Shown here: piece by piece, positions 52,670-57,598 of the stretch
Layout of the letters: the number at the start of each line of letters is the position of its first letter
How positions within the stretch are numbered: the stretch's first letter is position 1
From: Sphaerochaeta pleomorpha str. Grapes
GTDB taxonomy: Bacteria > Spirochaetota > Spirochaetia > Sphaerochaetales > Sphaerochaetaceae
NCBI RefSeq assembly: GCF_000236685.1
Contig: NC_016633.1
Coordinates: forward strand, 496,001 to 560,000
DNA: 64,000 nucleotides
Direction of reading: 5' to 3'
Translations under genes and position numbers: made by a program
Notes under the pieces: generated by a model
The model's database searches: none
The model's input: the letters and a program-made list of their open reading frames with translations, nothing else
What the model was told of the DNA's origin: nothing

Positions 52670-53299
52670 TTGGGTGATGGGCAATTGTTCGATTTTGCTG
52701 AACCACAGGTCATCTGTGGGATAGATGAAGCTGGAAGAGGCCCTCTGGCCGGACCTGTATGCGCAGCTGCGGTTATCCTCGGTGATGACTTTCCTGTCGA
52801 GATTCTCAACGATTCAAAAGTACTTTCCGAACAACAGAGGATGAAAGCCGAGGTTGTAATCAGGGAAAAGGCACTTGCCTATGCAATTTCCTGGGCAACG
52901 GCCAAGGAAATCGACCATATCAATATCCTGCAGGCTTCCCTTCTTGCGATGAAACGCGCCTATGACAAAATAAAGAAAGACCATCCAATCGACCTTGCAA
53001 AGGTGGACGGGAACCAACGACCCGACCTTGACTGTGCCACGATTGCCATCGTCAAGGGTGATGCCACGGTCCCTGCCATTATGGCAGCTTCAATCCTGGC
53101 CAAGAACGCCAGAGACAGGTATATGGTCTGTGCAGATAAAAAATGGCCACTATATGGTTTTTCAAAGCACAAGGGCTACCCCACCGAAGAACATCGCGAG
53201 GCCTGCCTGCTGTACGGGCTTTCGCCTATCCATCGCAAAACATTCCGTATCAAGGCCGGGGCAAAGAAAAAGCAGCCTGACGGCTGCTTGCTATTTTAG
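52670..53299 (+). CDS. rnhB: Ribonuclease HII
   Basis: 209 residues from a TTG at 52670, chosen because AGGGAGG lies 8 bp upstream and no in-frame ATG is near. Catalytic motif CGIDEAGRGPLAGPVCAAAV, second acidic KVDGNQRPDLDC, then SILAKNARDRYM and the FSKHKGYPTEEH ending motif. It removes ribonucleotides from DNA. The last codons (KKKQPDGCLLF) form the hairpin that terminates the convergent bpuR-like gene. Confidence 0.95.
   Translation: MGDGQLFDFAEPQVICGIDEAGRGPLAGPVCAAAVILGDDFPVEILNDSKVLSEQQRMKAEVVIREKALAYAISWATAKEIDHINILQASLLAMKRAYDKIKKDHPIDLAKVDGNQRPDLDCATIAIVKGDATVPAIMAASILAKNARDRYMVCADKKWPLYGFSKHKGYPTEEHREACLLYGLSPIHRKTFRIKAGAKKKQPDGCLLF
53263..53288 (-). terminator. Terminator of the PUR-domain gene, embedded in the rnhB coding end
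   Basis: Perfect 7-bp stem AGCAGCC / GGCTGCT with a 4-nt loop. On the minus strand it is followed by TTTTCTTT (53270-53263). On the plus strand the same hairpin is followed by a weaker TGCTATTTT. Confidence 0.85.
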
Positions 53300-53547
53300 A
53301 CTTCTACTGTCCCTTTTTCGTTTTGCTTGATGAAATCCAGCGATTTCTGGAGTTCCTTGACAAATTCTCCAAGGTCTTCCTGGTAGACAATGATTGACTG
53401 CCTGATAAAGCGTTCGCTATCTGGAGTGCCTTTGCTCTCTACCATATTGAGGAACATGTCCCCATAGATGTTTTCCTTTACATTAAAGAAATAGGTCCTG
53501 TCATTCTTGACAAGCCTCGATGAATACACTTCTCCACGCTGTCCCAC
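53296..53547 (-). CDS. PUR-domain nucleic-acid-binding protein (BpuR-like)
   Basis: 83 residues from a GTG at 53547, with GAGG 8 bp upstream. This gives the start MGQRGEVYSSRLVKNDRTYFF, like Borrelia BpuR, whereas a longer frame (TTG at 53634) would add a sequence without family resemblance across a promoter. The core VKENIYGDMFLNMVESKG and FIRQSIIVYQEDLGEFVKELQKSLDFI follows the PUR repeat. BpuR binds DNA and RNA and acts in post-transcriptional control; the same kind of role is inferred. It has its own promoter and terminator. Confidence 0.85.
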   Translation of the reverse strand: MGQRGEVYSSRLVKNDRTYFFNVKENIYGDMFLNMVESKGTPDSERFIRQSIIVYQEDLGEFVKELQKSLDFIKQNEKGTVEV

Positions 53548-53602
53548 GTTTCTATCCTCGCTTTGCAAAACGTTCAATTCTCTACGCTCTACTGATGGCT
53601 TA

Positions 53603-53631
53603 CTTGTAACAGGAAGATGCATATATGTCAA
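53603..53631 (-). promoter_or_regulatory. Promoter of the PUR-domain gene
   Basis: On the minus strand, TTGACA (53631-53626), a 17-bp spacer and TACAAG (53608-53603). The predicted transcript would start near 53596, about 50 bp before the GTG at 53547. This supports the short start. Confidence 0.65.
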
Positions 53632-53640
53632 CAATAGGGC

Positions 53641-53669
53641 TTGACCAACTTTGGATTTTGCTTTATAAA
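53641..53669 (+). promoter_or_regulatory. Promoter of tRNA-Gly
   Basis: TTGACC (53641-53646), a 17-bp spacer and TATAAA (53664-53669). The predicted start is about 9 bp upstream of the mature tRNA. Confidence 0.8.
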
Positions 53670-53684
53670 CATCAACGTTAGCGC

Positions 53685-53755
53685 GCGCCTTTCGTATAAT
53701 GGTATTACCTCAGCCTTCCAAGCTGAAGAAACGGGTTCGACTCCCGCAAGGCGCT
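53685..53755 (+). tRNA. tRNA-Gly (anticodon UCC)
   Basis: 71 nt without encoded CCA. The acceptor stem GCGCCTT / AAGGCGC is perfect. The D arm contains AATGGTA, the anticodon stem TCAGC / GCTGA encloses CTTCCAA (anticodon TCC), and the T loop is TTCGACT on a CGGG/CCCG stem with an A-C mismatch at its base. The discriminator base is T. Lack of an encoded CCA fits the RNase Z and CCA-enzyme genes in this window. Confidence 0.93.
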
Positions 53756-53791
53756 CAATGTCCAAAACCTTACCTATTATGGAATAGAAAG

Positions 53792-53820
53792 CCCACACTT
53801 CAGCGTGTGGGTTTTTCTTT
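53792..53820 (+). terminator. Terminator after tRNA-Gly
   Basis: Stem CCCACAC / GTGTGGG with a 6-nt loop, followed by TTTTTCTTT. It ends the single-gene tRNA transcript. Confidence 0.88.
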
Positions 53821-54085
53821 GCCCTGATCAGTCTGGACATGCATCAGATTCTGCATTAAAAGCCTCAACGAACAAAGAATTCTTTGGGATTGTGAATGCC
53901 AAGGAAGTTTTTCATTGAGTAGAATTATCAGACCGCGCACATTGGGATTTATATCATAGGTAAGGACGTCTGTTGGCTTCAATGATCATCAAGTCTGTTA
54001 GGGTTCAGTCCGATCTCCTGATAGAGTTGGTCCGTAGTACTCAATCTAATCTAGTGGATTAACTTAATCCTTTTTGCTTCTTATA
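53821..54085. other. Gene-free junction between tRNA terminator and AT-rich island
   Basis: No convincing gene. On the minus strand a short frame near 54050-53988 reads STTDQLYQEIGLNPNRLDDH before a stop. It has the flavour of a worn transposase end but is too short to assign. Composition shifts from host-like to AT-rich at about 54060. No repeat of the tRNA 3' end was found here or at 56.2-56.9 kb. Confidence 0.35.
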
Positions 54086-55335
54086 TTATTGAACTTTTTT
54101 CTTTATGTAGGCTTGTACAATTTTTTTTATCAAATCTTGACTCTCCTTACTATAAATCTCTTCTCTGAATTTTTCATATATATCTTTAAAGTTTTCCCAT
54201 TCATATATCTTAGTTTCTAAGAATTTATCGAGATTTACTGTAATTCTTGAATTCTGATGGTAGTATTCTCTTAGATTTTTCTCCGTTATTTTTATTAGAT
54301 AGCCAATTATTGCTTTTTTAAACTTTGAATTTATCCAGCTATATTTTATCCATTTCCAATCATCATAAGAATATGATTCCTGGTATTCTGGCTGAAATTT
54401 ACAGATTGGATTTGCATTTCCTTGTTCCATGAAATTTATTCTATTAAAAGGAGTCCAATATGTTTGCTCTTCATAATCTCCAGCTAACAATACTGAGAAT
54501 TCAATACCCCTACTTTTCATATGCTTATTTATTCCTCCACATACATATGGCAGGATGTCCATAGTAAGGTACCCTTTTTCTGTAGAGTAGAAAGAACTTG
54601 TAAGATAATCATAATTTGTATTTTTTTTAAAATAAGGTATTAGCTCGAGATATTTGCCATCCCTCAACTTAGCAATTTCTAAATCTATTTCTTTTTTCTT
54701 TTCAGTTCCATCATTTAGACCATAGTACAGACAATAGTCATGTACTATTTCTTCATATATATATACTTTATCAATATTTTCAAATATCTCCGGTATTTTA
54801 TCTGTAAGAATTTTGTAGCCTTCACCAACTGATGCAATTCCTATTAAATTTATAATTTCCAATAGATATAGTCTCAGATAAAGATCATTTGAAACTTTTC
54901 CCAGATATTTCATTTCTTTATTATCATCTGGTAATTCTTCTATTTTCTCTGCTTGCAACTTTCTTAATGCCGTTCTCCATGACAAGTAGCAATATAACTC
55001 TTCTTCTTTTAACCATCTATAGTCAAACTGAGTTCCAAATTGAAAGACTTCTCCTAAAGCTTTATGTTCTGCTTTGCTATAAACATATTCATAATAGGTT
55101 TCTACATTATAGTCTTCTAGATACTTAGCTAGTTTATAAAAGATTGCTGCATTATTCTCATTTGGATTATTTTTACCATACTGTTTCTCATAATCACCAA
55201 TTCCACCTTTTTCATTTGCGAAATAAAATTTGAGTCCATTAAATATATATATATTGAAGATTTATGATCTTCATACTTGCATTCAAATTTTGGCGCTATT
55301 TCCAACAATTGCTTATAAATATTATTTTTTTCCAT
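54086..55335 (-). CDS. AT-rich gene of unknown function, frame broken at an (AT)6 tract (possible phase-variable gene)
   Basis: The frame opens at the ATG at 55335 (MEKNNIYKQLLEIAPKFE) directly after the stop of the DUF2971-like gene. It enters an (AT)6 repeat and then reads out of frame to a stop at 55129. The following frame, starting FYFANEKGGIGDYEKQYG, is open without interruption to 54086. Removing one AT unit joins the two into a 415-residue protein reading SSIYIFNGLKFYFANEKG across the repeat. The predicted protein is mostly helical, rich in Lys, Glu, Tyr and Asn, with no signal peptide or membrane helix. No family was recognised. The base composition is far more AT-rich than neighbouring genes, which suggests transfer. 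The (AT)5 allele is probably ON and this copy OFF, unless the shift is a sequencing error. Confidence 0.6.
55243..55254. repeat. (AT)6 dinucleotide tract within the coding start of the 54086-55335 gene
   Basis: Six AT units at about codon 30. A change of one unit (2 bp) switches the frame, the usual structure of a slipped-strand contingency locus. Confidence 0.85.
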
Positions 55336-56196
55336 TTAAAAAAAATCCCGTTTTACTGTATTCGATATTTCTGAAAATATTTGTCTTTCTTTTTCACCAG
55401 CCCATAGTACATACTGGTCTCTCCAATGTAGATTAAAATATTCTATTTCCTTCTTTTTAGCATAATCTATAATCTGATTTATAATAAATTGATTTTTCAT
55501 AGCATCAGCACATATTATTATACTTTTTAAGCAATTCCCGATTTTTAAATATTTCATACTATTTGTGAATGTAATCGCTCTTATTTCTTTTTCTCCACCG
55601 TAATCAATATTTTTCCTATTTAAATATTCCAATACTTTTCCTTTAAGTTCTTTTTTATTCAGTTGCTCTTCGTTAGCCAATTTTTCTTTATTCAATCCGA
55701 TTGAACTTATTTCTATTTGTTCTTCATATGTCAAATATTGTCTTTCTTTCCAATAAACTTTATTACTCATTTTCTTTAGTTCTTGCAAAGAAAATGCTAG
55801 GCATACGCCTGAGAAATGTTCACCATATTGATCCCACATTCTCTGTTTGATAAAGCCACAATCGTTGAGACTCTTTATTTCTCCATTAATGTAATTATTT
55901 TCACAGAAACATACATGCTTTGATTGGCTGGCTATTCGATTAATATATTTTTCAGCCCTTTCAATATTGATTCTCTGATTTTCTGAATAGGCATAAGCCA
56001 AAGATAAAGGTGAATAATAGTCTGGATTATTTGCGCTTTTCGCTTCAAAAGGATCTTTTGAATTTTTTATCAATGACATCTTTAACTCTTCATTAAACAA
56101 TATGAATTCAACTGCTGCCTTAGCGGTTGTATAATGAAATATAGTATCGTTCGATAGAATTATTTCTGGCACGTCTTTAAGAGGTTGTACTAACAT
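55336..56196 (-). CDS. DUF2971-like protein, first gene of an AT-rich two-gene module
   Basis: 286 residues from an ATG with AGGA upstream. The N-terminus has IFHYTTAKAAVEFILFNEELKMS, then SKHVCFCENN, KQRMWDQYGEHFSGVCLAFSLQEL and GGEKEIRAITF. This order (HYT, then C-x-C/S, W..YG..G.c.aF, and a basic EIR strand) is that of DUF2971 proteins, which are scattered accessory genes of unknown biochemistry. Its stop codon is immediately followed by the start of the frame-broken partner (0-bp gap), so the two should be translated as a unit. AT-rich composition and the tRNA-side location suggest horizontal acquisition. Function unknown; a defence or toxin role is only a hypothesis. Confidence 0.68.
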   Translation of the reverse strand: MLVQPLKDVPEIILSNDTIFHYTTAKAAVEFILFNEELKMSLIKNSKDPFEAKSANNPDYYSPLSLAYAYSENQRINIERAEKYINRIASQSKHVCFCENNYINGEIKSLNDCGFIKQRMWDQYGEHFSGVCLAFSLQELKKMSNKVYWKERQYLTYEEQIEISSIGLNKEKLANEEQLNKKELKGKVLEYLNRKNIDYGGEKEIRAITFTNSMKYLKIGNCLKSIIICADAMKNQFIINQIIDYAKKKEIEYFNLHWRDQYVLWAGEKERQIFSEISNTVKRDFF

Positions 56197-56463
56197 TCAA
56201 ATATATCCTGATGCTTTTCTATAATATATAGACGAAAATCCATATATTTATTTTATGTATTTTTAATTTTGTTACTGCTTTTTTAAAACCTCTTTGATTC
56301 AATTTGTCTTTCAGCCATTTTCAACCTTTTGCATATAAGAATATCACCAATAGCTGTTTTTTACAAATTATTATTCTATATAACCATATAACCAAGCTGA
56401 CTAAACTGTTTTATTTTTCAATCTTGAATATTCCGGGCGTATTTACAGCACCAGTCCGGTCTT

Positions 56464-56520
56464 CGGAAATCACATTTCCGCTTGAATGGAATCACAGTTC
56501 CAGTTAGGAAATCACCTACC
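56464..56520. repeat. Phased ATCAC / TTCC repeats, resembling an IS21-type transposon end
   Basis: Three related units: CGGAAATCACATTTCCG (a perfect 7-bp palindrome with a 3-nt loop), TGGAATCACAGTTCCA, and GGAAATCACCTACC. The ATCAC cores are 22 and 20 bp apart. Multiple TCAC-N-TTCC boxes at about 20-bp spacing are typical of IS21-family termini. The rest of 56197-56632 contains no gene that I can support. Confidence 0.4.
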
Positions 56521-56632
56521 TTAGAATAAATGCATTCACAGCATAATTGCAAATTCATTTGAGGAGGCCGTCAGGATCCACTATCGAGAAATCCTTACGC
56601 TTAACATTTTTGGGATATTCGCAGCGTGATAA

Positions 56633-56827
56633 GTGTGCAAGCGCAAGCGTGTGTACCGTAGACTGAAAAATCCAAACCAAGGATTTTGGCTTGCCAAAAC
56701 ACACGCAAGCGTCTCACAGAAAACGGTAATCAAGCTCTATACCCTTTACATCAGGAAAGGAAACAGCCCAGCCATGACCTTTGTCAACTTGATAAAACCC
56801 GTACCAAAGCCAGCCTCTGAAGAATAG
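56633..56827 (+). other. Doubtful small ORF beside the repeats
   Basis: A 64-codon frame from a GTG without a ribosome binding site, basic (CKRKRVYRRLKNPNQG), with no recognised family. It overlaps a complex inverted repeat: GCGTGTGT (56647-56654) with ACACACGC (56699-56706), enclosing AAAATCC (56667-56673) with GGATTTT (56681-56687). It may be the remnant of a mobile-element gene or just structured non-coding DNA. Confidence 0.2.
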
Positions 56828-56878
56828 ACGCTCGTAGCACAGTTTTACAGCTCGAGGATTAATTGTCATTTTTGCCGT

Positions 56879-57598
56879 CTAGAAGTCAGGCCTAAACACC
56901 TCTTTGTTCCTGACAGCCTCCAAAATATGCCTTGCCCCTTGTTCATCCTTAAGATTGAGCCTCAGAATCTTTCTTGCCAGGATTGCTGCATCATCAAAAT
57001 CCCCATTTTTCCAATACCAGCAGGATAGTGCAAGCAGTGCTCGCAGATAGGGTCTGTTGTTGCGAAAGAACCAAGGAAACTGTGCTGTTTCATCTAAAGG
57101 GAAATTCTGCTCTGCAATGTATACAGCTCCACTGAAACAGTTGAAAGCACCCTTAAACCTTTCAGGTGAATCAAAATTCATCATTCCCATCTGAACCAAC
57201 GCATCTATACACTGTGGATAGTGCTCCCATAACCGAGCGAGGGCATCATACCCTTTTTGGGGGTCCATCTCCATAGCCTCAAATATTGGATCTCTGCCAG
57301 GAGAATAGAATTCATAACCCGTATAATCTTTTAATACATATCTATTTCTTTCAATATTCTCATATTCAAGGGGAGGTACATCGAGGTTTGCAAGAAGCAA
57401 CTCGTGTTTTAGCAACTTCCCTGAAACATAGGAATTCTTTTTGAATATCCACTCTTTCTCAACCTCAACGGTGATGGTTTCAAGTTCAAATGCCTTGAAG
57501 TCGATATCGCTCTTCAACGATACTATGTTTCCCGTTTCCAGTTCTCTTGTACGGTAACCCATACTATTGAGCTTCAGAACAATATATTGCTTTTCCAT
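56879..57598 (-). CDS. Cytoplasmic TPR-like protein of unknown function
   Basis: 239 residues with AGAGG before the ATG. The N-terminal half (1-110) is mixed beta/alpha. From about 110 on it has helical pairs of TPR type (YDALARLWEHYPQCIDALVQMGMMNF, RFKGAFNCFSGAVYIAEQNF, RALLALSCWYWKNGDFDDAAILARKILRL) ending in an extra helix. There is no signal peptide. The composition is host-like again, so the AT-rich island ends before it. The family and partner are not known. Confidence 0.6.
   Translation of the reverse strand: MEKQYIVLKLNSMGYRTRELETGNIVSLKSDIDFKAFELETITVEVEKEWIFKKNSYVSGKLLKHELLLANLDVPPLEYENIERNRYVLKDYTGYEFYSPGRDPIFEAMEMDPQKGYDALARLWEHYPQCIDALVQMGMMNFDSPERFKGAFNCFSGAVYIAEQNFPLDETAQFPWFFRNNRPYLRALLALSCWYWKNGDFDDAAILARKILRLNLKDEQGARHILEAVRNKEVFRPDF

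Follow-up and report, generated by a model that had tools for sequence, protein, structure and literature searches.

The AT-rich segment at 53822-56420 of the window, the 64-kb stretch of DNA analysed here (bases 496001-560000 of a single-contig genome of 3,590,853 bases), lies at a tRNA-Gly integration hotspot and carries two touching minus-strand genes, an intact DUF2971 gene (gene 1) and a frameshifted gene related to TerB_N and SngA (gene 2). We tentatively read this segment as hotspot cargo, an anti-phage-type operon in which a putative ADP-ribosyltransferase (ART) effector would be combined with a TerB_N partner and which would be broken or switched off in this genome. A serious rival is that two separate cargo genes came to lie side by side by chance.

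The segment and its surroundings

The distinct base composition reported in the preliminary description is fully apparent. The two-gene block (54086-56196) has a GC content of 28.6% (0.286), compared with a mean of 0.462 (sd 0.015) and a minimum of 0.423 in 570 overlapping intervals of 2111 bases taken from the rest of the 64 kb, outside the segment. The complete AT-rich segment (GC 0.293) has a left edge defined by the point, between 53821 and 53861, where homology to relatives ends, just past a terminator-like hairpin with T-rich flanks (53792-53811, scored on the minus strand) located behind the tRNA gene. Its right edge is defined by composition only. The neighbouring tRNA is a tRNA-Gly(TCC) at 53685-53756 on the plus strand, about 330 bases from the two-gene block. 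The DNA to the left is indeed of housekeeping type, with smc-like and rnhB-like frames recognised by eye and a DUF3276 gene identified with Pfam. The product of the latter (53296-53634, E 5e-14) is a DUF3276 / PurA-like protein; its gene lies between rnhB and tRNA-Gly and is conserved in the genus.

To the right of the pair, the IS-like repeats mentioned earlier could not be recovered as such. No second copy of the region 56200-56900 occurs in the window, and the region contains only short imperfect repeats; three frames tested there gave no Pfam match, and the region has no match in the plasmid collection. The short imperfect repeats of type GGAAATCAC are grouped inside 54 bases (56462-56515) and are perhaps an old IS end. 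Bases 56392-56411 (plus strand) agree with tRNA-Gly at 16 of 20 positions. In sets of 300 mononucleotide shuffles, none came up to this level at length 20, compared with 2 at length 30 and 30 at length 40. The match is only suggestive of a decayed right attachment site, and the 24-base end of tRNA-Gly, which has no second copy in the window, counts against such a site.

Gene order and frameshift

Gene 1 (55336-56196) encodes an intact protein of 286 aa; an AGGA element was noticed by eye upstream of its start. Gene 2 (54086-55335) follows with a 0-bp gap, as described previously: the TAA of gene 1 (55338-55336) is immediately followed by the ATG of gene 2 (55335-55333), the contact occupying 55335-55338 on the minus strand. 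A promoter scan returned 16 sites for 15.5 expected. The two-gene structure first proposed stands as far as contact, common strand and integrity of gene 1 are concerned, but gene 2 is not one open frame. It is split between frame A (55335-55129) and the 391-codon frame B (55261-54086). The overlap of the two open frames includes a run of six AT dinucleotides (12 bases, 55243-55254), the longest of its kind in the 64 kb, where only two runs of at least five units occur, both within the AT-rich segment. The frameshift at this run may result from slippage, decay or a sequencing error. Chance does not account for open frames as long as 286 and 391 codons, since stop-to-stop frames did not exceed 103 when DNA of this composition was put through 300 mononucleotide shuffles.

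The tRNA-Gly site in related genomes

Of 26 genomes of the genus, 24 (own genome included; G835 by 24 bases only) were matched by a probe that spans DUF3276 and tRNA-Gly. Thirteen other genomes were inspected downstream of the tRNA: as read there, five (G843, G838, G842, G830 and G836) carry an AT-rich or mobile insert and eight carry none. The segment thus sits at an integration hotspot of the genus, in line with the horizontal acquisition initially proposed. The island of G843 (L152:4192-9479), at the same tRNA-Gly, is 5.2 kb long with a GC content of 23-34% over its first 4.5 kb, and its end is a 43-bp copy of the 3' part of the tRNA (93%). It includes convergent AAA_13 and PIN_8 genes. The AAA_13 protein matches PADLOC PDC-S06 (E 1.3e-32) and the PIN_8 protein has no PADLOC match. 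Behind a transposase-like start, recognised by eye, the island also carries the C-terminal part of a gene 2 relative (48-49% identity). This truncated fragment is the only close relative of gene 2 found and is not accompanied by a DUF2971 gene. In G838 (L153:5080-9264) the tRNA-Gly is followed by a PD-(D/E)XK nuclease candidate, a 729-aa AAA_13 protein and an integrase-like fragment without Pfam match, and in G842 by a tyrosine integrase and a replication (Rep) protein.

The defence flavour suggested for the segment is reinforced both by the AAA_13, PIN_8 and gene 2-related content of the G843 island and by the PADLOC matches of the two window proteins (PDC-S31, E 4.2e-6, for gene 1; SngA, E 1.7e-5, for gene 2). 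The tRNA-Gly(TCC) site offers a defined hotspot for finding more such cargo.

Relationship of gene 2 to TerB_N and SngA

Gene 2 had been presented as resembling nothing known, a statement that has to be abandoned. Judging from its profile matches it is a divergent member of the TerB_N/SngA family, and no full SngA. Two clostridial proteins gave weak matches, L100 (1 of 40 genomes and records) and L101 (2 of 398 genomes, one of them weak), which led to the TerB_N test of gene 2. By Pfam, both proteins consist of TerB_N plus TerB_C. L101 lies in a Shango operon, because a SngB gene (PADLOC E 3.7e-114) is adjacent; L101:1027-3680 is the start of that operon (SngA, SngB), of which L168 is a longer stretch. 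Thirteen further TerB_N proteins came from family searches, with matches in 8 of 119 genomes and in 5 of 100; the own genome has none over the cut-off.

Against the resulting profile of 15 proteins gene 2 scores 40.2 bits (E 3e-11), compared with 6.5 bits for the best of 2000 shuffles and 5.3 for the best of 817 background frames. With a stricter profile, L100 and L101 being left out, it still reaches 31.3 bits (E 1.4e-8) for a best shuffle of 14.8 bits. The independently built SngA model of PADLOC matches residues 32-374 of gene 2 (E 1.7e-5). Residues Y92, W95, R96, E135, N138 and R331 of gene 2 are common to all 13 rows aligned. The gene ends ahead of TerB_C, and no remnant of this domain occurs in any frame of 53600-57000. 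Pfam, PF13208 (TerB_N) included, gives no match with the 391-codon frame at E up to 10. The possibility that gene 2 is a true orphan was rejected on the TerB_N/SngA matches obtained via the clostridial proteins; the apparent orphan becomes a variant or remnant of a Shango-type protein.

Among 392 genomes of the phylum gene 2 matched the own genome only, and a search of 134 genomes of the family returned the gene itself, G843 and one false match. No relatives were found in plasmids or phages (tblastn), nor in close-relative scans of genome and viral contigs. G847 (E 1e-3) was rejected as a relative, its protein reading by eye as a FAD-dependent oxidoreductase, and a match in G573 (L102, E 0.008) with two stops was left out of the analysis. 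The gene 2 alignment matched 11 of 395 Bacteroidota genomes, all in the C-terminal part (positions 368-511 of 515). A single-sequence fold of gene 2 was unusable (pLDDT 32.6), and its one match among sequences of solved structures (E 0.33) was disregarded.

Gene 1 and the DUF2971 family

The first gene was correctly assigned to DUF2971. It matches PF11185 over nearly the full model (positions 1-88 of 89, E 2.1e-12) with 48.6 bits for a curated cut-off of 22. It also matches PHROG 1762, annotated as function unknown (E 6.7e-9), and two PADLOC models of PDC-S31, PDLC04991 (E 4.2e-6) and PDLC04990 (E 5.8e-4). The DUF2971 relatives tested give stronger PDC-S31 matches than gene 1, up to E 4.6e-16. 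According to PMC12482510, the PDC entries of PADLOC are "phage defence candidates" that await characterisation, and "PDC-S31" is not mentioned in the open-licence literature searched.

Members of the family are found in 10 of the 392 phylum genomes. A scan of genome contigs with a narrow pattern yielded 82 relatives from many phyla, of which 80 were kept; the five best relatives of gene 1 (33-34% identity) are Bacteroidota by title. With tblastn, no DUF2971 gene was found in phages and three plasmid records were, no TerB_N neighbour being named in the two regions opened. The DUF2971 alignment has no match among sequences of solved structures. Residues H21, D48, R119, M120, W121, Q123, Y124, G130, Y154, D198, E202 and E204 are invariant in an alignment of 72 sequences, the invariance of RMW.QY being an artefact of the search pattern, of which this motif was part. 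A second DUF2971 copy in the own genome (L174:5198-6019) shares 29% identity with gene 1 and lies in a different context. It matches PDC-S31 with E 4.6e-16 and has small, unrelated-looking neighbours (frames of at least 120 aa).

Genomic neighbours of DUF2971 and TerB_N genes

A pair of this kind does not appear as a conserved module. The co-occurrence survey, set in advance as the test of that proposal, revealed no TerB_N neighbour at any of 94 DUF2971 loci (about 87 distinct genes, seven loci being repeats) and no DUF2971 gene at any of 26 TerB loci, most of them covered about 1.5 kb either side. DUF2971 frames were located in 94 of 96 loci, with flanks of up to 5 kb (about 1.5 kb for L007-L015, less at contig ends), and TerB_N was tested on 817 frames of at least 150 aa. 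The DUF2971 profile has no match in 43 loci (the 26 TerB loci, 12 tRNA-Gly loci and five re-fetched TerB stretches). In this sample, then, the pair stands alone and the test comes out against pairing, though with little power, because the sole close relative of gene 2 is itself truncated.

Among the immediate neighbours of DUF2971 genes no partner is shared by the majority of loci, and many of them belong to housekeeping families (137 collected, 127 scanned after 10 short or opposite-strand frames were dropped). At E 1e-5 they match 144 PADLOC and 119 Pfam families, for which no enrichment is claimed. Among the matches listed (first 25 of each) are a type II methyltransferase, a 4TM effector, RT_UG17, Cas1, PDC-S25, PDC-S48, PDC-S49, mad2 (three members) and three phage integrases.

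Four clostridial DUF2971 genes have a conserved partner directly downstream (L077:4947-7350, L086:4887-6856, L090:1873-3761 and L099:4944-6841). The partner is 335-339 aa long in three loci, with 27-35% identity among the three, and 503 aa long in L077; the three shorter proteins have no Pfam match. This arrangement is a conserved two-gene module that differs from that of the window, the clostridial partner being unrelated to gene 2.

It is plausible that the two window genes were stacked at the hotspot by chance. Gene 1 would then be a DUF2971 gene that stands by itself, possibly as a single-gene defence (PDC-S31), and gene 2 would be a decaying Shango-type remnant unrelated to it, with no joint function. 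The absence of TerB_N at the 94 DUF2971 loci and the diversity of DUF2971 neighbours favour this possibility, as does the match of DUF2971 relatives to a single-gene PADLOC candidate. Hotspot cargo also varies between genomes, the G843 relative of gene 2 is found without DUF2971, and gene 2 is damaged in both places, by a frameshift in the window and by truncation in G843. However, a zero spacer, a common strand and a common composition are unusual for random stacking.

Predicted fold of gene 1

The structure model of gene 1 (pLDDT 89.4, pTM 0.87) has no Foldseek match in the PDB at E 0.001 or better. The first eight PDB rows (E 0.017-0.25) correspond to a Chromobacterium effector, named mono-ADP-ribosyltransferase CteC in three of them, and to yeast Tpt1. 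ART rows have TM-scores of 0.21-0.32 (by query length) with rmsd above 10 Å. After VIA realignment Tpt1 ranks first (Z 8.3, rmsd 2.8 Å, 110 residues, 8% identity), with DarT entries at Z 6.3-7.6, SopF at 5.1-5.3 and the CteC effector at 4.6. These values cover only Foldseek-ranked entries, and the tool cautions that Z 7-8 is often attained by models that lack a clear match. The eleven best rows are all ARTs (Z 4.6-8.3) and unrelated folds begin at Z 4.3. This separation of one superfamily from the rest makes the ART reading persuasive, and an ART-type fold of gene 1 is supported by the model. In the model, H21 is located in strand 18-23 and an E-x-E motif (E202, E204) at the start of strand 204-209. 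The model also matches nine predicted phage proteins (E 0.001 or better), several of which carry the label uncharacterised; this fits the PHROG 1762 match. The DarT family is absent from the Pfam matches of gene 1 (E up to 1), and so is AbiGi (PF10899), for which a genome search was also silent, as were its controls.

That DUF2971 proteins lack an ART fold, the structural matches reflecting a common alpha/beta arrangement, is rather unlikely. The lack of a PDB match at the Foldseek threshold and the frequency of Z scores below 8 among unrelated models point in that direction, but the eleven best rows belong to one superfamily standing above the next fold, and the conserved H and E-x-E are placed on strands. 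In the open-licence literature searched, an ART assignment for DUF2971 was not met, the name "DUF2971" occurring there only in a genome re-annotation. Placing the DUF2971 model among ADP-ribosyltransferases would provide a testable chemistry for a widespread family.

The bicistronic layout and the structural likeness of gene 1 to DarT, a toxin with an antitoxin, also evoke a toxin-antitoxin pair, gene 1 being a constitutive ART toxin and gene 2 the antitoxin. This is quite improbable: gene 2 is broken beside an intact gene 1, a combination not expected of a lethal toxin, DUF2971 genes are mostly found without a recurrent partner, and classical toxin-antitoxin operons often place the antitoxin gene ahead of the toxin gene. 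That gene 1 serves in nucleic-acid repair or stress, as an enzyme like tRNA 2'-phosphotransferase rather than a defence effector, would agree with the top structural score of Tpt1 but is very improbable given the sporadic occurrence of DUF2971 in the phylum, its AT-rich hotspot setting and its status as a PADLOC candidate.

Proposed function

For the operon reading of the segment, which we retain tentatively, analogy suggests that gene 1 is most likely an effector modifying nucleic acid on infection, with the TerB_N protein as sensor or brake. On infection the effector would use NAD+ to modify nucleic acid (or protein), or would consume NAD+, and phage growth or the cell would be stopped. Gene 2, which would be made beside gene 1 by translational coupling, might sense the infection or restrain the effector. 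From these comparisons we infer an anti-phage function in which the two genes would work jointly. The frameshift at the AT run may have broken the pair or switched it off, and gene 1 may act alone.

Several observations weigh against this operon reading. The pairing is absent from the 94 DUF2971 and 26 TerB loci, gene 2 is broken and without match to the Pfam TerB_N model, and neither SngB nor SngC is present beside the pair, where the neighbouring frames are rnhB-like, DUF3276, weakly TPR-like and membrane proteins (partly by eye). In addition, the neighbours of DUF2971 genes vary from locus to locus, the Foldseek matches are non-significant, the VIA scores fall within the range of the tool's caution, and PDC-S31 is only a candidate defence family.

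A more specific proposal is a minimal two-gene system carried as tRNA-Gly hotspot cargo, in which a reduced SngA, consisting of TerB_N and lacking TerB_C as well as an ATPase and a helicase, would control a DUF2971 ART, the regulator being switched by slippage at the AT run. In this precise form it is unlikely; that the pair represents a new two-gene system is possible without being proven. The DUF2971 and TerB_N assignments are both testable, and by themselves they do not prove one joint defence system.

Comparison with known systems

AbiG has genes similar in size to those of the window pair. Gene 1 has no match to AbiGi (PF10899) and gene 2 has no Pfam match, whereas the layout resembles that of AbiG (AbiGi/AbiGii), described as a bicistronic abortive-infection operon (PMC3985639).

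Shango, which combines TerB-like, ATPase and helicase genes, has been shown by experiment to act against phages; Johnson and colleagues report modest protection in Pseudomonas (PMC10250203). Its mechanism is listed as unknown in PMC12926258. TerB-like genes are described in the Shango and Bunzi defence systems (PMC10952713) and in Dionysus (PMC12926258). Gene 2 resembles Shango through its matches to the PADLOC SngA model and the TerB_N profile. It differs in being frameshifted, in lacking the TerB_C domain and in having a DUF2971 ART-like gene as neighbour.

ARTs taking part in phage defence include DarT (PMC9503650) and CmdTAC (PMC11618068). The predicted fold of gene 1 and the two-gene layout recall DarT of DarTG, but gene 1 has no DarT-family Pfam match and gene 2 is TerB_N-like rather than a macro-domain antitoxin. 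Tpt1, the tRNA 2'-phosphotransferase, gives gene 1 its highest structural Z, yet shares only 8% identity in the structural alignment, and gene 1 lies in a sporadic, mobile setting. Finally, PDC-S31, which groups DUF2971 candidate defence proteins, is matched by gene 1 through both PDLC04991 and PDLC04990. It is a single-gene candidate, whereas in the window a second gene directly abuts gene 1.
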